A stretch of DNA of 64,000 bases, taken from NCBI GenBank assembly GCA_951828385.1, contig OX639973.1:4021200-4085199 (forward strand). The letters run 5' to 3'. This DNA is from an uncultured Poribacteria bacterium (GTDB taxonomy: Bacteria > Poribacteria > WGA-4E > WGA-3G). This document shows, one piece after another, positions 2,458 to 12,904 of the stretch. The position numbers and the translations under genes are program-made. The notes beneath the pieces are model-generated. The model was not told the origin of the DNA, ran no database searches, and saw only the letters and a list, made by a program, of their open reading frames with translations. The stretch's first letter is position 1. Every line of letters starts with the position of its first letter.

Positions 2458-3948
2458 TTAAACTTCAATTTTGATGAAAAACAGAAATGTCACCGTGAAC
2501 AGTGCCAGATTGATAAGTAGCAGCAAAAGCAATCCGGGCAGGGCTCGCGTTGCGTTTTCCCAAACATCTGTCCGATCAAAATGGAACTGGGGCAAATCCC
2601 ACCAGTCTACTGCACCTCTGTCAGAGGCGAACCATTTTCGACTGCCGAATGCATCTTTATCATGGAAATAGTCAACGATGGTACGCCGGTAACCTTGAAC
2701 AGCTTGAACAAAATCAAACATGCCCTCCAGATCGGTACCTGCCCAAGCAGCGGCTGTAAACGTGTAGAGGCTTGCAGGACTGAGTTTCATGAGCCGTTCA
2801 TGCCTTATGGATTCCCAGAGAGCGGTGCTATCCAAAGTCTGTTTTCGGACTAAAGCGATCTGTTCCGCAGAACGGATGTACAAGGCACCCATAGTGGCAT
2901 GATACTGTTGAACGTGGGGCACTAACGGTTCTGAGCGTTTTCCCAACAGGCTCATATTCACTCCATGCCGTTTGCTGAAGTGCCTCCCCGACGAGAAACT
3001 ATTACTTGACGGAACATCCAGATTAAATTTTTGAGGTTCACCTTCAAGCGGACTATTCGCTAAAAACACGCGTTCTTCTCGGTCAACCTCTTCCCAAATC
3101 TGCTCAATCTGCTGATCTGCTGATGAATGTATTGCGCGCGTATCACCCACCGGGGTGATGGTAAATCGGCTCCAATTTGGATAGACGAGTACCAAAGCTA
3201 CCCACAAAAACATACAGAGCATTAACGATGTAGCCGTGCGGCGCGTTGTTGCGGAAATCAGCAGTCCTATCAAGTAAAATACAGACAAGTAGATGCTCGT
3301 CGTCAAAACTATTCCGCCGATCCGAAGAAAATCTTCTCCATCCAGTTGAATGGAGCTCGTGGAGGATAATAGAATCAGGACCATCAATAGACTCATCAAA
3401 ACAGGAATCAGCAGACAGACCATTGCCCCGATATATTTCGCAAATAGGATGCTACCGCGTCGCACTGGATGGGAGATCACCAAACGTAAGGTGCCACTTT
3501 CCCAATCTCCTGCAATTGCGTCATAAGCGAAAAGCAGTGCCATCAGGCTCAAAACGACTTGAAAAATGAGGACGAGATCGATCTTTGAAAAGAGGTTAAG
3601 AAACGTGTTATCGAGACTTCGCGCCGAGCCATCCGAAATTATTGGGACGGAGCCGTAATAAATTTCAAAGGTGGTTCCAAGCCGCTTATCCAATCCTGCA
3701 CTAAAGAGACTTAGCGGATTCGGCGGGCGTTCAACGGACAGTTTGAGCATTGAGTAGGTTTTCGCTTCTTGCACTTTCTGACGGTGGGCGTTTTCTTGCT
3801 GGCTATATTTCATCAACCGACGCTCGTAATCTTCGAGAAGCACAACAGCATTCGCGACAACGAGCAGGAGCGTAATGATAACAGCGGCAAAAAACCGCGC
3901 ACTCATCAGATGTGTTAGAAATTCTTGGCGGATAAGTGTTCGCAACAT
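2458..3948 (-). CDS. ABC-2 type transporter permease (first of two)
   Basis: A 496-residue paralogue of the next gene with the same layout: an N-terminal TM, a long loop, a TM cluster from about residue 125 to 260, a polar loop and a C-terminal TM. The coupling motif is GDWESGTLRLVISHPVRRG. The two permeases probably form a heterodimer. The gene lies 63 bp downstream of the M61-like peptidase gene on the same strand. The two large extracytoplasmic loops resemble the DUF3526-type ABC-2 proteins. Direction of transport and substrate cannot be read from the sequence. Confidence 0.88.
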   Translation of the reverse strand: MLRTLIRQEFLTHLMSARFFAAVIITLLLVVANAVVLLEDYERRLMKYSQQENAHRQKVQEAKTYSMLKLSVERPPNPLSLFSAGLDKRLGTTFEIYYGSVPIISDGSARSLDNTFLNLFSKIDLVLIFQVVLSLMALLFAYDAIAGDWESGTLRLVISHPVRRGSILFAKYIGAMVCLLIPVLMSLLMVLILLSSTSSIQLDGEDFLRIGGIVLTTSIYLSVFYLIGLLISATTRRTATSLMLCMFLWVALVLVYPNWSRFTITPVGDTRAIHSSADQQIEQIWEEVDREERVFLANSPLEGEPQKFNLDVPSSNSFSSGRHFSKRHGVNMSLLGKRSEPLVPHVQQYHATMGALYIRSAEQIALVRKQTLDSTALWESIRHERLMKLSPASLYTFTAAAWAGTDLEGMFDFVQAVQGYRRTIVDYFHDKDAFGSRKWFASDRGAVDWWDLPQFHFDRTDVWENATRALPGLLLLLLINLALFTVTFLFFIKIEV

Positions 3949-4011: not shown

Positions 4012-6408
4012 TTACACTCCATTGCCTAACATTCCCGACCAGATGGTGCGTTGCAATGCTGTGCGATCCGCGCTTTTTGAGATACTGACATCAATGGGAC
4101 CTGGCTCTATGGGCGGTTTTTCAGACGGATCACCGGCTAATGTGATAGGTAGGTTGACATTTTCACCACCTCGCTCAACGGTTAGCTCAACCCTATCACC
4201 CGGTTTCCAATCTTTGGCGACCTTCCTGATGTCATCAAAAAATTTCACCGGTGTGCCGTTGATGCCTATCAAGTTGTCGTCATCCTGGTACTGTGGGGAT
4301 TGGTGGATGAACATGCCGCCGCCTGTTGAACCGCCGAGTAACTTGATTTGAAGCATCTGAAAAAGAATATAACCAAGGCTCGGAAGTTTTTCGCCAAATG
4401 CTATCTTGACATCAATACCCGCATTCGTGAAATATTCCGCCAGCGGTAAGCGTTCCGTTCCTGAAACATACTTTTTGAAGAACGGTTCAAAATCTTCATC
4501 TGTGGTTTGGCTGACAATTCTGATGACATCATTCATTGTGTATTCATTTCCGGTGAGACCAAATTCACGATACATCTGCTTCATCACATCGTCCAAACTG
4601 CCTCTGTTGTTCGTGAGTTTACGAATCTGCAAGTCTAATGCAGCAGCAATTAGGCTCCCACCCTCATAGACGAGCCCTCTGTTCGGCATCTTGTTTTCGC
4701 CTGCCTCGCGGATAGAGAGTTCACCCTGTTTAGACAGATACAATTCGCACTTGCGTTCAAGGTCCTTGAGAAAATCCTCTTCAGAAATTACGCCAAGACG
4801 AACGCAGCTAATTTTTGAAGCGTACTCGGTGAACCCTTCGCTAAACCAGTATTCCTGTTCACTAAAATTGATAGCTTTTCCATTCCAAATATGGCAAATT
4901 TCATGTGCCACGAGCGGTGTCCATGATCGTCTGTTGTCTGCATCTAATGTTCCGTCCATCAGAACGCTGATGCTGCGACCAGATACGCCGCCCCCGCTGT
5001 ATGTATCACAAGGATTCGCCACAAACAACATACGATCCGTTGGTGTACCACCGAAAATTCCTGAGTATGTATGCAGAAGTGATTTAACAGTTCTTTGGAC
5101 TTCATCCATAGATGCTTTGAAGTGTCCACCCAAAGCGAGCAGAACCTCTGCCCCTTCAGATTCTGCCATTTTCTCGGCATGTGTCCCCAGCACAAGATAG
5201 GCATACATCAAGTCGTTATGGTCTGCTATAGCAAAACGGTGCCTTTCGTTTCCAATACGATTCCAAGGGGTTGAGACGTGCCAGTCATCTGGAACATCAA
5301 CACACAGTTCAATATCCGCCACTTTACCGACGATAAACAGCGCATATCCGGGACAGAAAATACAGTCTTCTTGAACGTACGGTGCTTCATCCCTACCGAA
5401 AGCCCACTCCCGTTCATCATGATTCAGCAACACTTTGTAATGTAACGTCACAGGTAAATCATTCTCGACTTCAACCATCCATTGCGTTTTTCCAATCTCT
5501 GTGACCGGTATTTTTTCGCCATCAGTATCGGTGGCTGTTAGATCACGGAGATATCTACTATATCCATCGTAAAAATCTTCAGTACCAAAGTGACTCATAG
5601 ATAATAACAACGGCTTTCGGTCCGTTTGTAGGGGCGAGGTAACCTCGCCCTTACTGTCTGTCTTCGGCGTTAGCACACACGCAACATTTGCTACGCGCCG
5701 TTCATTGGCCTCTATTTTAATCTCATATCTCGCCGATGCAAGTTCCATCGGTGTATCAAGATTCTCAGGTTCACTGAAATTTCGGATAACGCGCCACTCT
5801 TCAATGGCAGCCTCATCCCGATAATCGTTTTGCCATTTATAGGTCCATACATTGCCAATTTGCAAAGGAAGGTATTTTTGGTCTTCAACAGGAATCTTGT
5901 ATTCGAGCAATTCGGCTTCTGTAACGACCCCGTTGGAATGTTCATATCGCAATTTCACAAGACCGACACCCTCGGCAAACCATAGATAACGGGTGCCATT
6001 CAAAAGCGCATTTCGCAGCTCAGCCTTCGTATCCTTTACATCGGCATCTGTGAAGACAGTTTTATGCTTTAGGCAGTCCGAGAACGTGCCTGCTGAGACT
6101 TCTACAGGTTCGTAACCCTCCAAACTACTTTTCGTCTGCATACGCCAGTGCCCTTTTTCTTTCCAAGTTTTCCCTATATCCAGCGGAAATTTGAAGAGAT
6201 CGATTTCATAGTGGCTCATGTAGGATAGCAACATATACCTCGGTGATGGATCACTGCTACCGTGCCCTGCTGTACCGAAGTCGGTAGATGTCAGAGCCGT
6301 ATCGGTTCTCTTAAGGGTGAAATTCCCTTCTGCCAAATGATTCCCGCTTTCTGTAGCAGCACTCGCACTTAGAACAATGTTGCGTTCGGATTTAACCGTT
6401 TTTTTCAT
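4012..6408 (-). CDS. M61-like zinc metallopeptidase with C-terminal PDZ domain
   Basis: 798 residues. The N-terminal ~370 residues hold two TapB-like segments. The gluzincin signature HEICH (H502, E503, H506) is followed by WFSEGFTEY, with the likely third ligand E524. HIWNGKAI and SEGFTEY resemble the M61 glycyl aminopeptidase pattern, and M61 proteins also carry a C-terminal PDZ. A PDZ-like segment (about 690-770, INGTPVKFFDDIR) is present here. There is no clear signal peptide or TM helix, so it may be cytoplasmic. The ATG shares one base with the TAA of the upstream sigma-fusion gene and has an AGGAGAAAG ribosome site, so translation is coupled. It aligns along its whole length with the C-terminal part of that fusion. 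A palindrome sits in frame at 5628-5654. Confidence 0.85.
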   Translation of the reverse strand: MKKTVKSERNIVLSASAATESGNHLAEGNFTLKRTDTALTSTDFGTAGHGSSDPSPRYMLLSYMSHYEIDLFKFPLDIGKTWKEKGHWRMQTKSSLEGYEPVEVSAGTFSDCLKHKTVFTDADVKDTKAELRNALLNGTRYLWFAEGVGLVKLRYEHSNGVVTEAELLEYKIPVEDQKYLPLQIGNVWTYKWQNDYRDEAAIEEWRVIRNFSEPENLDTPMELASARYEIKIEANERRVANVACVLTPKTDSKGEVTSPLQTDRKPLLLSMSHFGTEDFYDGYSRYLRDLTATDTDGEKIPVTEIGKTQWMVEVENDLPVTLHYKVLLNHDEREWAFGRDEAPYVQEDCIFCPGYALFIVGKVADIELCVDVPDDWHVSTPWNRIGNERHRFAIADHNDLMYAYLVLGTHAEKMAESEGAEVLLALGGHFKASMDEVQRTVKSLLHTYSGIFGGTPTDRMLFVANPCDTYSGGGVSGRSISVLMDGTLDADNRRSWTPLVAHEICHIWNGKAINFSEQEYWFSEGFTEYASKISCVRLGVISEEDFLKDLERKCELYLSKQGELSIREAGENKMPNRGLVYEGGSLIAAALDLQIRKLTNNRGSLDDVMKQMYREFGLTGNEYTMNDVIRIVSQTTDEDFEPFFKKYVSGTERLPLAEYFTNAGIDVKIAFGEKLPSLGYILFQMLQIKLLGGSTGGGMFIHQSPQYQDDDNLIGINGTPVKFFDDIRKVAKDWKPGDRVELTVERGGENVNLPITLAGDPSEKPPIEPGPIDVSISKSADRTALQRTIWSGMLGNGV
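5628..5654. repeat. Palindromic element inside the peptidase gene
   Basis: Two 13-base arms (5628-5640 and 5642-5654) around one central base pair at 12 of 13 positions, with core arms GGGCGAGGT and ACCTCGCCC. It lies in frame in the M61-like gene and encodes part of SKGEVTSPLQT. The paralogue upstream has the shorter SSPKG at the same place, between conserved KTDS and DRKP. This looks like a small palindrome inserted without breaking the frame, as Rickettsia palindromic elements do. Confidence 0.6.
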
Positions 6409-9374
6409 TAACTTTCTCCTTTATCGCCCACAATACTCGACCAGATCGAGCGTTGTAAGTCTGTGCTATCCATGTTTTTTGTGATAGTAACATCAAGGGG
6501 TCCTGGTTCCAGTGGTGGTTTTTTCGACGCGTCACCTGCTAATGTAATAGGCAGGATGATTTCTTCACCTTCTCGCGCCAGGGTTAACTCTACTACATCA
6601 CCGGATTTCCAATCTTTGGCAGCTTTCCTGATGCCGTCAAATGTTTTCACCGGTGTGCCGTTGATGCCTATCAACTCGTCGTCATCCTGATACTGTGATG
6701 AATGATGGATGAACATACCTTGTCCTGTTGGACCGCCAAGCGATTTAATTTGAAGCATCTCAAAAAGAATATAATTAAGACTCGGAAGTCTCTCGCCAAG
6801 CTCTACTTTGGCATTCATACCTGCCGCTTTAAGATATTGTTCTAACGGCAGTTGCTCTGTCCCTGTCACATATTTACTGAAGAAGGGTTTAAAATCTTCG
6901 CCGGCAATTTGATTGACAATCCTGATGACATCGTTGATCGTATAGGTAACGTCGGTAAGACCGAATTCTTGGTACATCTGCTTCATCACATCGTCTAAGT
7001 TGCTTCGGTTTTCTGTAAGATCGCGAATCTGCAAGTCCAAAGCTGCAGCGACTAAACTTCCGCCGTCATAGACGAGTTCGCGGTTCGCGGATTTGTCTTC
7101 CCCCGCCTCTCGAATAGAAAGTTCACCCTGTCGAGATAGATACGATTCCCATGTGCGTTCAAAATTTCTGAGAAAATCGCTTTCAGAAGTAAGTCCAAGA
7201 CGGACAGAAACAATATCTGAATAATATCCTGTGAACCCCGCTCTAAACCAATATTCCTGTTCACTAAAATTGATAGCCTGACTCCCAAACCAGAGGGAGG
7301 AAACCATATATGACACAAGCGGTAACCAAAAACGTCTGCTCGCTTTATCTAACTCGCCGCCGACGTGCACGCTGATGCTGCGTCCGGATGCGCCACCACC
7401 GGGATGTCCTTTTTCGCCATACGGGTTGGCAACAAAAAGTATCTTACCTGTTGGAATAGCATCAAATACATCTGAATACCCGTGCAGGAGTGACTCGATG
7501 GTAGGTTGGACCTCATCAATAGACGCTTTAAAACGTCCACCGGTTGCAATCACGACCTCTGCATCTCCGAATTTTGCCAGACGTTTACTGTATTCACCCA
7601 GCACAAGATATGCGAACATCAGGTCGTCTTGATCCTCACATACGAACTGATGTTCATCCGACGCTATCTGCTCCCAAGGTGTTGAGACGTGCCAGCTGTC
7701 CGGCACATCGACTTTTAGTTGAATATCTTTGACTTCACTGACGATAAACAGCGCGTATCCCGGCAAGAAAATGCAATCCTCTTGGACGTAGGGTGCCTCA
7801 TTCCGACCAAAGGGCCACTCCCGTTCATCATGATTTATCAACACTTTGTATTGCAGGGTTAAAGGTGATGCGCTTTCTACCTCAACAACCCACTGTGTTT
7901 TACCAATCTCCTCTATCAGTAATGTTTCACCGTTTACATCGGTAACCGTCAAATCTTGAAGATACCGGGAATATCCATCGTACAACCATTCTGTTCCAAA
8001 ACGGGTCATGGACAAGAGCAACGGCTTTCGGTCCCCTTTAGGACTACTATCTGTTTTTGGTGTTAGCACACACTTGACATGCGCGACCCGCGGTTCATCG
8101 TCACTTATTCTCACCTCATATCTCGCCGATGCAAGTGCCAAGGGGTTATCAAGATTTTTGGGGTGAGTGAAATTCCGGGTGACGTGCCACGCTTCAACAA
8201 TCGCCTCATCGTTATAATCGTTGTACCATCTGTATGTCCACTGCGTGCCTATTTGGGAAGGGAAATATTCTTCATTCGCGAGTGGAATCTCATATTCAAG
8301 CAATTCCGCTTCCGTGATGATACCATTAGAATGCTCATAGCGCATCTTTACGAGCCCAACGCCCTCGGCAAACCACAGATAACGCGTGCCGTTTAGGTAT
8401 GCGTTTCCCTGCCCAGTGTCGGGTTCTTCTACGTCAGCGTCTGTGAACGCAGTTATATGCTTCAGGCACGATGGAAAAGTCCCAGCTGAGACCTCGATTG
8501 TCTCATGTCCTTCCAAAGTTATCATTGCTTTTGATTTGTGAGGACCCTCCGGCTCCCACCGACTCCCAATAACCAAAGGAAATTTAAAGAGGTCTATCCC
8601 ATTAGGGTGGTTAATATAGTGCAGTAACATATACATTGGCAGCGGGTAGTCGCCATGGAGTCCCATCGTGTGAGAACCGGTAGACGTAAAAACCTTATCC
8701 GTTTGTGTGAGTTCAAAACCGCCTTCTGCTAAATGCTCTCCTGCTTCTGTTGCTGCAGTCGCTTGAATGCTAATGTATCGCGGTTCGCTTTTTAATAAAT
8801 TCGGACTCAAGGTTTCTCGCAGCATCGACTCCTCCTGCTCCAGTCGCTTCCGCGCACGATATAACCGGCTTTTTACTGTGTTCAAAGATACATCTAAACG
8901 CTCACTCACCTCTTCACAGGTTAAGCCGTTGAAATAGTGCAGGACCATCACAGAACGTTCCGTTTCTGGCAGCTTTCGGAGGAGGCGTTCTACAACTTGT
9001 CGGAGTTCACCTGTTGATGTTTGTGCCTGTTCTTCCTCAAGATATTGCGTATAGGACACCTTCTCTAACTCGGCTTTAGGCATTGCGTCCAGTGACTGCA
9101 TCGTGATTGGCTTTCGCCGCAACCACTCAATGCACTGACGCTTTGCTATCACATACAGCCATCCCAAAAAACGATTGGGATCCCTCAAGGTAGGCAGCGA
9201 TTTAAGAGTTTGAATGAAGGTGTCTTGTGTGATTTCTTGTGCCGCGTGGAAATCACCAATCTCACGCCATGCAAGCGAATGAACCCACTTCCGGTGCCTT
9301 TCCACCAGAGCAGTGAACGCAGCTTCATCACCTGCCAAGATGCGCTGAATCAGATCAACATCTTCGTTTTTCAT
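6408..9374 (-). CDS. ECF sigma factor fused to a catalytically dead M61-like/PDZ protein
   Basis: The start at 9374 (MKNEDVDLIQRILAGDE) has a GGAGG site 5-6 bases upstream and gives 988 residues; an upstream in-frame start at 9419 is less likely. Residues about 1-175 are a sigma-70 family ECF factor: region 2 (FLGWLYVIAKRQCIEWLRR) and region 4 (LPETERSVMVLHYFNG, then SLNTVKSRLYRARKRL). The remaining ~800 residues match the next gene: TapB-like segments, an M61-like core and a PDZ. The zinc motif HEICH has become YMVSS (Y689-S693) and the third ligand is now A711 (RAGFTGY). The surrounding INFSEQEYWF is intact, so the fold is kept and catalysis is presumably lost. No TM helix is present. First gene of the operon. 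Confidence 0.88.
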   Translation of the reverse strand: MKNEDVDLIQRILAGDEAAFTALVERHRKWVHSLAWREIGDFHAAQEITQDTFIQTLKSLPTLRDPNRFLGWLYVIAKRQCIEWLRRKPITMQSLDAMPKAELEKVSYTQYLEEEQAQTSTGELRQVVERLLRKLPETERSVMVLHYFNGLTCEEVSERLDVSLNTVKSRLYRARKRLEQEESMLRETLSPNLLKSEPRYISIQATAATEAGEHLAEGGFELTQTDKVFTSTGSHTMGLHGDYPLPMYMLLHYINHPNGIDLFKFPLVIGSRWEPEGPHKSKAMITLEGHETIEVSAGTFPSCLKHITAFTDADVEEPDTGQGNAYLNGTRYLWFAEGVGLVKMRYEHSNGIITEAELLEYEIPLANEEYFPSQIGTQWTYRWYNDYNDEAIVEAWHVTRNFTHPKNLDNPLALASARYEVRISDDEPRVAHVKCVLTPKTDSSPKGDRKPLLLSMTRFGTEWLYDGYSRYLQDLTVTDVNGETLLIEEIGKTQWVVEVESASPLTLQYKVLINHDEREWPFGRNEAPYVQEDCIFLPGYALFIVSEVKDIQLKVDVPDSWHVSTPWEQIASDEHQFVCEDQDDLMFAYLVLGEYSKRLAKFGDAEVVIATGGRFKASIDEVQPTIESLLHGYSDVFDAIPTGKILFVANPYGEKGHPGGGASGRSISVHVGGELDKASRRFWLPLVSYMVSSLWFGSQAINFSEQEYWFRAGFTGYYSDIVSVRLGLTSESDFLRNFERTWESYLSRQGELSIREAGEDKSANRELVYDGGSLVAAALDLQIRDLTENRSNLDDVMKQMYQEFGLTDVTYTINDVIRIVNQIAGEDFKPFFSKYVTGTEQLPLEQYLKAAGMNAKVELGERLPSLNYILFEMLQIKSLGGPTGQGMFIHHSSQYQDDDELIGINGTPVKTFDGIRKAAKDWKSGDVVELTLAREGEEIILPITLAGDASKKPPLEPGPLDVTITKNMDSTDLQRSIWSSIVGDKGES

Positions 9375-9471
9375 GCGATCCTCCAAAGTTGTTTGATAGC
9401 AAGTTTCGGAAACCTGCAAGCTTCGCCGAAATTGCCTTGTGACGTTATGTCGTATTTTAACGGAGGAAAGG

Positions 9472-9504
9472 TTGCATAAAATGCATTTTTATGCAAAATT
9501 TTGC
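9472..9504. promoter_or_regulatory. Nested palindromes upstream of the sigma operon
   Basis: Perfect 10-base arms TTGCATAAAA (9472-9481) and TTTTATGCAA (9487-9496) flank a 5-base centre. A second perfect palindrome GCAAAATTTTGC (9493-9504) overlaps the right arm. The block lies about 100 bp upstream of the sigma-fusion start codon, in a gap between two minus-strand genes. It is therefore a good candidate operator or promoter-control site for the operon. No confident -35/-10 pair was found nearby. Confidence 0.45.
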
Positions 9505-10478: not shown

Positions 10479-11207
10479 TTATTTGTTATCTTCTGGCGCA
10501 TCTGCTTCTCTCTGATCGTCTTCGACCCGGGCTTGGGTGAGAACGGATGCTAATAACCCCGACGGGATGGCGATTAATCCGACCCCGACGAGCGTGACGA
10601 ACGCCGTGAAAAACTTCCCACCCGGTGTTATCGGAAAGGCATCTCCGTAGCCGACGGTGGTGAGTGTGACAACTGCCCACCACATGGAATCGAGGATAGA
10701 GCCGAACTTTTCAGGTTGCACGTCTCTCTCAAAGTAATGAATCCCACACGCCGAGAGATACACAAGCATCAATGATAAGATCAGCAGGGCGAAGAGTTCG
10801 CGGTGGATCTGACGCAGTGCGGCACCGAGTTGATCGACCGCCAAGATAAACCGCGTCGCCTTAAAGAGTCTGAACACCCGCAAGAACCGCAGGATCCGAA
10901 GCACGCGGAACCCTGGCACAACTAACAGGGAGGGTAGAATCGCGATCAGATCAACGATGCCATAGAAACTGAAAATGAAATCCTGTTTCCTCGGTTCAAT
11001 ATAGACGCGCAGAAGATATTCTATGGAAAACAGAGCCAGAAACATCACCTCTAAGACGATAAAATAGGTTCTGTATGGGTCTACCTCCAAGTGTCGTCTA
11101 TCGGATTCAAACAGATAAACGATCGCAGAAAAAAGGATCAGAAATTGGATTATCCCAGTAAAGACCCGTCCTTCGACAAGGGCGCGTAATTTTTCTTTTT
11201 TATCCAT
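10479..11207 (-). CDS. Voltage-gated potassium channel, six-helix type
   Basis: 242 residues. S1 lies at about 15-33, S2 at 47-68 and S3 at 78-97. S4 is at about 100-120 with an arginine at nearly every third position (FRVLRILRFLRVFRLFKATRF without its last residue). S5 is at about 137-156. The pore carries the K+ selectivity filter TTVGYGD at residues 183-189, followed by S6. The C terminus is short and acidic, with no RCK or cyclic-nucleotide domain, so gating is probably by voltage alone. It forms a homotetramer in related channels. The gene lies 69 bp upstream of the four-helix membrane protein gene. Confidence 0.93.
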   Translation of the reverse strand: MDKKEKLRALVEGRVFTGIIQFLILFSAIVYLFESDRRHLEVDPYRTYFIVLEVMFLALFSIEYLLRVYIEPRKQDFIFSFYGIVDLIAILPSLLVVPGFRVLRILRFLRVFRLFKATRFILAVDQLGAALRQIHRELFALLILSLMLVYLSACGIHYFERDVQPEKFGSILDSMWWAVVTLTTVGYGDAFPITPGGKFFTAFVTLVGVGLIAIPSGLLASVLTQARVEDDQREADAPEDNK

Positions 11208-11699: not shown

Positions 11700-11753
11700 G
11701 CATGAGATGGCATCCTAAGAGATAACTACAACCTTTAGGAGGCCATCTCATGC
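11700..11753 (+). promoter_or_regulatory. Leader hairpin covering the transposase ribosome site and start codon
   Basis: GCATGAGATGGC (11700-11711) pairs perfectly with GCCATCTCATGC (11742-11753). After one mismatch, TCCTAA (11713-11718) pairs with TTAGGA (11735-11740), leaving a 16-base loop. The right arm contains the AGGAGG ribosome site (11737-11742) and the ATG (11750-11752). A transcript entering from outside would fold this hairpin and block transposase translation, as described for IS10 and IS50. Confidence 0.75.
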
Positions 11754-12904
11754 AGGATCACCTTATCAAATCTACAATCTTTTTTCAAGACCTTCTTTCT
11801 TCTTACTTTCAGCGGATGCGGCAGCAAATCGTTGAGACGCTACTTCTGCTCTGTGTTTGCCATCTTTTTGGACTTTACAATCCGAATCAAGTCGCCGATG
11901 CTTTGAAACTTCCCAAAGCACGTCTTTATCGCAGTCTTGGAAACCTGAGCCTTTATCACTCGAAATGTTTGAATCTCCGGCTCGGATGTGCGATGGCAGT
12001 TGATTTCATCAAAGACACTGAAAGTAAGAGTGCTTCAACACAATCGCGGCGGTGTATCACCGTCAGTATTGATGATAGCAATCTCCCGCGTGAAGGCGAG
12101 ACGTTATCTTACTGTTCAAACTACTACTCGAAAAAACACAATACGCCTATCTGGTGTCAGAACCTCTTAGGCATCACACTGAAATGCGGAGATCGCGTGA
12201 TCCCCTTAGATATGCGTCTCGTCAGTAAACAAGGACGCGGCAACACAGATAAACCTACTCTCGTTATCACCATGATCCAAGAAGTCTTAGCGTTCTTTGA
12301 TACCCACGGCATAGACATCAGAAAATATCCAATCACCTTCGATTCATGGTATGGGAGCCGTAAACTTGTTGAGGCTTTATCGGAGTTGGGGTTTACCTCT
12401 ATATTGATTCACGGAAAAAATAACTACGTCATGACTATCGCTGATACAAAGGCGAAACTTTCGGTTCATAAAAGACGCGTGGCGCTGGCTGCGGATCAAT
12501 GGGGCTGTGATAAACCCGCCTGTCGCCTCAAAGCAGAAAGTCCAACTTTCGGGGAATGTGTCGTCCTATTTTTCCGAGATAGAGGCAAGATACGAACCCT
12601 TTTAGTCTTTGGAAAACCCCTACGCACCTCTGAGGCTCTCAGGATTTGGTCTCAACACCACGGTATTGAACAGTTTTGGCGGCACTTCAAATCGAACCTC
12701 CACGTCTCTGCCATGAGCCTCGAAAGCAGACAAGGGGCGTATGTGAGCCTCGGTATAAAAGTGATGAGTTATCTGATGTTGCTACAAATGAGCATCTCAG
12801 AACGACGCACTTTTCATCAAATACAACTTCAACTCACTGGAGAAAGACAGACGCTTACGGACTTCATAACGCATTTTCATACAATAATACCAAAAGAACC
12901 CTGA
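11750..12904 (+). CDS. IS4-superfamily DDE transposase
   Basis: 384 residues. Candidate catalytic residues are the aspartate in VSIDDSNLP (about residue 107), the aspartate in TFDSWYGSRKL (about 197), and the glutamate in HHGIEQFWRHFKSN (about 307), which fits the Y/W-x2-R-x3-E-x6-K style of IS4-like enzymes. The N-terminal third (SSYFQRMRQQIVETLL, then YNPNQVADALKLPKARLYR) looks like a DNA-binding helix-turn-helix region. The strong AGGAGG site is buried in a leader hairpin. The ORF appears intact, so the element may be active. The IS subgroup was not determined. Confidence 0.88.
   Translation: MQDHLIKSTIFFQDLLSSYFQRMRQQIVETLLLLCVCHLFGLYNPNQVADALKLPKARLYRSLGNLSLYHSKCLNLRLGCAMAVDFIKDTESKSASTQSRRCITVSIDDSNLPREGETLSYCSNYYSKKHNTPIWCQNLLGITLKCGDRVIPLDMRLVSKQGRGNTDKPTLVITMIQEVLAFFDTHGIDIRKYPITFDSWYGSRKLVEALSELGFTSILIHGKNNYVMTIADTKAKLSVHKRRVALAADQWGCDKPACRLKAESPTFGECVVLFFRDRGKIRTLLVFGKPLRTSEALRIWSQHHGIEQFWRHFKSNLHVSAMSLESRQGAYVSLGIKVMSYLMLLQMSISERRTFHQIQLQLTGERQTLTDFITHFHTIIPKEP

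Follow-up and report, generated by a model that had tools for sequence, protein, structure and literature searches.

What does a peptidase do once its catalytic residues are gone and its chain continues directly from a sigma factor? The question is raised by a gene in the window, i.e., the whole 64,000-nucleotide stretch analysed here, which belongs to a Poribacteria genome of 6.66 Mb assembled as a single contig; all relatives named below are Poribacteria MAGs. An earlier note, made from the sequence of this DNA, had described an intact ECF sigma joined to an M61-like chain at 6408–9374 on the minus strand, and both the coordinates and the frame were right. The gene encodes 988 aa and has orthologues across 31 genomes, and its start codon is the ATG at 9374, closely preceded by a GGAGG that is kept in the orthologues.

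The first 185 residues (8820–9374, minus strand) form the ECF sigma module, sigma2 plus sigma4, as recognised by Pfam and NCBIfam. Sigma70_r2 and Sigma70_r4 are found at the N terminus without sigma3, as is characteristic of group IV, and residues 5–181 match the solved ECF sigmas SigW and E. coli sigma-E. What follows had been taken for a chain of about 800 M61-like/PDZ residues; the M61 part of that description holds, the PDZ part is weak, and the roughly 200 residues between the sigma module and M61_N turned out to be a separate domain. This domain (residues 195–372; 8259–8792, minus strand) is a putative DUF3108-like or LolA/LprG-like beta domain, weakly matched by Pfam DUF3108_like with an E-value of 0.0017 and by Foldseek best to YmcC-like lipoproteins (E 1.6e-5), with LolA and LprG below, at low TM-scores of 0.25–0.44 and a model pLDDT of 71.5. 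The M61 N-terminal and pseudo-catalytic domains occupy residues 419–858 (6801–8120, minus strand), where Pfam places Peptidase_M61_N at 419–586 (E 5.5e-12) and a partial Peptidase_M61 at 705–752 (E 7e-5); both families (PF17899 and PF05299) pass the cut-off and assign the region to the M61 fold. Structure prediction, which the earlier note had proposed, gave a retained M61 fold across residues ~408–985 in an AlphaFold2 model with a mean pLDDT of 82, its top match being 4fgm at a Z of 34.4; a further match, at a Z of 29.1, is 8j9c, an M61 from Xanthomonas. The C-terminal PDZ-like region (residues 859–985; 6420–6800, minus strand) reaches an E-value of 0.068 for PDZ_2, and its counterpart in the neighbouring paralogue at 4012–6408 reaches 1.7e-4, both below the cut-off.

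The extension is folded, in frame after sigma4 and conserved, which makes the protein an ECF factor with a C-terminal extension, and this architecture suggests that the extension would control the activity of the sigma. One way in which it could do so is as an inhibitory part that is cleaved off by proteolysis, as in the IutY-type sigma/anti-sigma fusions. Activation of ECF extensions by proteolysis has precedent (PMC8999054), and residues 184–195 of the model form a low-confidence linker; a hydropathy scan found no TM segment on which regulated intramembrane proteolysis could act, and no signal peptide, in either the fusion protein or the active paralogue, and Pfam recognised no anti-sigma domain (and no WD40 or SnoaL-like domain) in the fusion, so that we regard cleavage as quite improbable. 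The reading that we prefer, and hold to be probable from the sequence, is that of a one-component switch, in which an ECF sigma with its own promoter and regulon would be regulated in cis by the LolA-like/dead-M61 part.

The loss of catalysis is evident at the zinc site. YMVSS (residues 689–693; 7296–7310, minus strand) replaces HExxH, and Ala712 (7239–7241, minus strand) replaces the Glu that serves as the third zinc ligand; both replacements, the first of them of HEICH, had been pointed out before and are seen in the alignment with relatives. The sigma-less cytosolic paralogue at 4012–6408 (minus strand, 798 aa), which is 64% identical to the fusion across 797 residues, retains HEICH...SEGFTEY, i.e., has its catalytic residues intact, and is predicted to be active. 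An alignment of the catalytic residues, likewise suggested by the earlier note, was then extended to the family. The general-base Glu and the second His are gone in all 31 copies of the sigma-fused clade, the first His in 24 of the 31 and the third Glu also in 24, so every dead copy has lost three or four of the four residues, whereas all 47 aligned relatives outside the clade retain the four. A zinc site of HExxH with a downstream Glu, by which an M61 peptidase is recognised, is thus present in none of the 31 sigma-fused copies, which are pseudo-enzymes. In the catalytic region, 49 positions that do not vary among the active enzymes are equally invariant among the dead copies, for instance in the strand GG..S.SI ahead of HExxH and in QEYWF..GF, which speaks for a retained fold and for a sensing role of this half. 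The replacement motif itself varies among the dead copies (YMVSS, HVVGY, RLVCY, NVIGY, GVVCY) and no conserved new ligand motif was found at the dead site in the aligned copies; given this variability, a conserved ligand pocket at the old zinc site is improbable. Some dead copies (L057, L059, L062, L063 and L066) carry small insertions directly ahead of the position once held by the third zinc ligand, and some of these insertions duplicate a QEYWF-type motif.

The pseudo-peptidase occurs in 31 Poribacteria genomes, in one copy each. Two results had been named beforehand as speaking against a genuine fusion, namely that relatives encode sigma and peptidase separately and that a stop interrupts the junction, and neither was seen: the sigma is fused in 29/29 copies with an intact 5′ end, single-contig genomes included. 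Two copies (L039 and L065) lack the sigma part in the sequence read, their 5′ ends lying off the contig, and the front half of the L065 gene, which starts with the sigma, lies on a separate contig (L245). Each of the 29 complete genes has kept the pseudo-M61 part at its full length, and in one fused copy of 800 aa (L064) the LolA-like domain has been lost and the M61 part kept. In an M61 tree rooted by lipoprotein M61s from related genomes, the sigma-fused clade is monophyletic (SH-aLRT 100) and sister to the cytosolic active paralogues. The dN/dS ratio is far below 1 in each domain of the fusion, its median being 0.086 in the sigma module, 0.168 in the dead catalytic domain and 0.176 in the same domain of the active paralogues; purifying selection on the dead domain is thus as strong as that on the active one. 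Because the fusion is conserved, its clade single and its dN/dS low, the gene is a long-lived pseudo-enzyme and not a decaying one. A decaying gene fusion or an assembly artefact, to which the lost and variable catalytic motif might point, was considered and ruled out, its chance being negligible in view of the 29 fused complete orthologues, the single-contig genomes, the low dN/dS throughout and the conserved promoter and ribosome-binding site.

A search of the relatives for a sigma–M61 fusion outside Poribacteria found no case. Within them, two genes of another kind were met: a sigma-TM-M61 with an intact zinc site (L084:424-3657, minus strand) and L085:17480-19900 (plus strand), for which the stretch ends before the zinc site. 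A sigma-TM fusion of the window genome (L123:3847-6765) has almost the same sigma as these two, and the sigma tree places them apart from the window clade; they probably represent a second, independent fusion, with the AU test being compatible with one fusion origin (p 0.123).

If the sigma is functional, it should have a promoter to read. Upstream of the fusion gene lies an ECF-type promoter, TATGCAACCTTTCCTCCGTTAAAATACGAC (9449–9478, minus strand), with the −35 element TATGCAAC at 9471–9478 and the −10 element CGAC at 9449–9452, i.e., an AAC-containing −35 and a CG-containing −10 as are typical of ECF factors. The pattern TATGCAACC-N17-CGAC is conserved 5′ of nearly all orthologues while the flanking DNA diverges, and the upstream consensus of the orthologues, TATGCAACCTTTCCTCC.TTAAAATACGAC, with its ECF-like −35 and −10, corresponds to 9449–9478 of the window. 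Overlapping the −35 is the near-palindromic TGCATAAAAATGCATTTTATGCA (9473–9495, unstranded), partly conserved in the orthologues, whose TGCA boxes are ~10 bases, about one helical turn, apart; judged by its sequence, it is a possible operator or upstream element. Promoters of sibling sigma fusions carry TGCAGAATTATGCA, which may be compared with these TGCA repeats.

Since the sole site of the exact type in the window genome is the operon's own promoter, the genes concerned in the window are those of the operon, all on the minus strand: the sigma–pseudo-M61 gene, the active M61 paralogue, ABC-2 permease 1 (ABC2_membrane_2, DUF3526; 2458–3948), which is a conserved neighbour, ABC-2 permease 2 (919–2445) and, as the last gene, a DUF3108-like protein (1–856) that extends 13 bases beyond the window edge. 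A search for Walker and LSGGQ motifs found no ABC ATPase beside the window operon; in one relative (L241), an ABC ATPase accompanies a relocated permease operon. Upstream of the operon, the window holds a voltage-gated-type ion channel (Ion_trans; 10479–11207, minus strand) and a DDE transposase (11750–12904, plus strand).

This arrangement would also suit a switch by titration, in which the dead M61 would bind the active M61 paralogue or an ABC-2 permease and hold the sigma sequestered as long as neither exporter nor enzyme is engaged. The start of the active paralogue overlaps the stop of the fusion (TAATG), ABC-2 permeases are close to the fusion in 22 of 29 loci, about half of the fusion loci have an active M61 in tandem, and ECF42-type extensions have been proposed to act via protein interaction (PMC8999054). 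Against it, many genomes have no adjacent active M61, and the permeases are distant in some, which leaves titration unlikely.

The regulon was followed by the recurrence of the promoter elsewhere. A search of 38 genomes of the genus gave 40 sites for the exact pattern and none for the control; the recurrent sites within the clusters are all on the same strand, with 0 matches to the reversed pattern in 453 kb. The same promoter precedes TM-anchored active M61 genes (L045, L046, L054, L060), genes for secreted proteins (L045, L046, L056), ABC-2 permeases (L052, L057), the gene of a CarboxypepD protein (L058) and further units. In G009 the permease pair is remote from the sigma locus, and in G023 and G030 it is on a different contig; in all three it has its own copy of the promoter, and the permease operon of G012, also with its own copy, is probably likewise on another contig, which ends there. 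The exact promoter is found in 25 of 32 genomes with the sigma–pseudo-M61 versus 1 of 26 without (p 4.6e-9, family-wide, the genomes not being independent), an association that is partly built in because most of the sites are the fusion gene's own promoter; cleaner evidence comes from the permease operons that have been relocated. In G030, the target promoter is present and no sigma–pseudo-M61 was found. For this promoter in general, recognition by a different ECF factor from the same genome is conceivable in principle. Because the promoter is conserved and recurs before these genes, the sigma of the fusion is, on comparative sequence grounds, very probably functional, autoregulating and driving a small M61/ABC-2 regulon.

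The same search led to natural variants that bear on which part of the extension does the sensing. Two sigma–LolA-like paralogues of 415–416 aa (L244, L246) lack the M61 part and have the same CGAC promoter; they are 60–62% identical to residues 1–409 of the fusion, one of them (L246) has two permease-like genes 3′ of it, and proteins with only the sigma and the N-terminal domain also occur in L087/L091. From these paralogues it follows that the M61 part is dispensable for sigma function. The earlier note had suggested that binding to the PDZ/pseudo-active site might free or block the sigma domains; with the PDZ weak and such paralogues present, the LolA-like domain is maybe the primary regulator instead; it may be the core to which M61 was added as a further input. 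Carried to its end, this would make the LolA/DUF3108-like domain next to sigma4 the true sensor or inhibitor and the pseudo-M61 a passive scaffold or multimerisation platform. LolA-like folds bind lipids, the fold match here being a low-scoring one, and the paralogues, up to 62% identical and in one case beside ABC-2 permeases, fit such a sensor well. The L064 gene does not, as it dropped just this domain and retained M61, and the full-length pseudo-M61 of the 29 complete genes, at an omega of ~0.17, is under more constraint than expected of a passive scaffold; a role for the LolA-like domain alone is therefore a minority reading, though a serious one.

The fusion is also one member of a much larger class. 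The window genome (G000) has 102 matches to Sigma70_r2, and its relatives have 42–104 each. Seventy sigma ORFs of more than 330 aa were recovered from it (e.g., in L122-L161), 52 with a single TM helix right after sigma4, and the giant-sigma-fusion genes form several tandem clusters; WD40, LRR, Reg_prop and CarboxypepD-like domains were met in the sampled C-terminal parts. Among the TM-less fusions, L136, L137 and L132 bear AhpC/TSA thioredoxin-like, methyltransferase and HTH domains, and in L145:658-2025 and L153:584-2311 (both minus strand) an ECF sigma is joined to beta-clamp domains of DNA polymerase III, with one of the two proteins having the complete set of three. The class has related promoters: TGCA(A/C/T)(C/A/T)-N14-20-CG(T/A)C lies 5′ of 28 of the 70 sigma ORFs versus 1.9 in shuffles, TATGCAMC-N16-19-CGTC has 29 sites in the window genome versus 7 for the control, and in the 38 genomes the class-wide TATGCAMC-N16-19-CGTCAC, found 5′ of sigma fusions, has far more matches than its reversed-pattern control. 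The −10 is CGAC in the window clade and CGTC in the sibling fusions, and the sigmas of the two groups show fixed differences, S59 and P61 among them, which we take to be near where ECF factors read the −10; to judge from these alignments, it looks as if sigma and −10 have diverged together in the window clade.

How the preferred one-component switch would work can be outlined as follows. The ECF sigma module would bind RNA polymerase and recognise TATGCAACC-N17-CGAC, and would thereby transcribe its own operon and, in the relatives, the additional units with the same promoter. The cytoplasmic LolA/DUF3108-like plus dead M61 part would bind the hydrophobic or peptide ligand of the enzyme without destroying it, and occupancy by the ligand would alter the packing of this part on sigma2/sigma4, turning the sigma on (or off). 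The dead enzyme is suggested as a built-in sensor because one promoter precedes the fusion, working M61 copies and an export system, and we infer that the dead M61/LolA-like half may sense the enzyme's ligand; sensing of the "enzyme's substrate" cannot be universal, since in about half of the loci an active M61 is missing next to the fusion. A fuller version is offered tentatively, as a reading with a fair share of doubt: the substrate of the M61 enzyme would bind the pseudo-enzyme half and switch on a sigma-specific regulon of M61 and ABC-2 exporter, with this sigma being one of about 70 with different built-in sensors and related promoters, whose CGAC −10 diverged along with the sigma clade.

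With this protein, the few ECF factors that carry a sensor of their own are joined by a pseudo-enzyme class, with a candidate promoter and target genes in hand. The fusion also belongs to an extensive family of giant sigma fusions from sponge-associated Poribacteria, whose matched sigma and promoter variants (CGAC versus CGTC) lend themselves to work on the evolution of ECF −10 specificity. Neither a sigma–M61 or pseudo-protease–sigma fusion nor sigma fusions in Poribacteria were found in the open-access literature, to judge from which the joining of a sigma to a dead M61 is new. ECF factors with regulatory extensions are already known, namely ECF41, 42, 56, 57, 238 and IutY, and for their extensions a change of conformation, protein contact or proteolysis has been shown or proposed as the mode of action (PMC8999054). 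ECF41 and ECF56 have a similar layout, in which sigma2–sigma4 is followed by a cytoplasmic cis-regulatory C-terminal domain and no separate anti-sigma is used (PMC8999054), but theirs is a SnoaL domain of 120–150 residues, whereas the extension here has ~800 residues of LolA-like, dead M61 and weak PDZ regions. ECF57 and the known planctomycete ECF–WD40 proteins (PMC8567305) likewise carry a giant C-terminal extension, built from a domain that is better known from other contexts, and the window genome has sigma–WD40 relatives of its own; the present fusion differs in having a pseudo-peptidase as its extension, with neither WD40 nor TM helix. IutY (ECF243) and ECF52 are also sigmas covalently fused to their own regulators, but they are membrane-linked and proteolytically processed (shown for IutY, expected for ECF52), unlike the TM-less protein described here. 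From the side of the enzymes, the M61 glycyl aminopeptidases (4fgm, 8j9c) have the fold of residues ~408–985, from which the fusion departs by the loss of the zinc motif and the general base and by the gain of an N-terminal sigma. A parallel in principle is offered by the ROK-family repressors (NagC/Mlc), which are unrelated, and repressors rather than sigmas, and in which a DNA-binding module is joined to an enzyme-derived domain that senses the enzyme's ligand.
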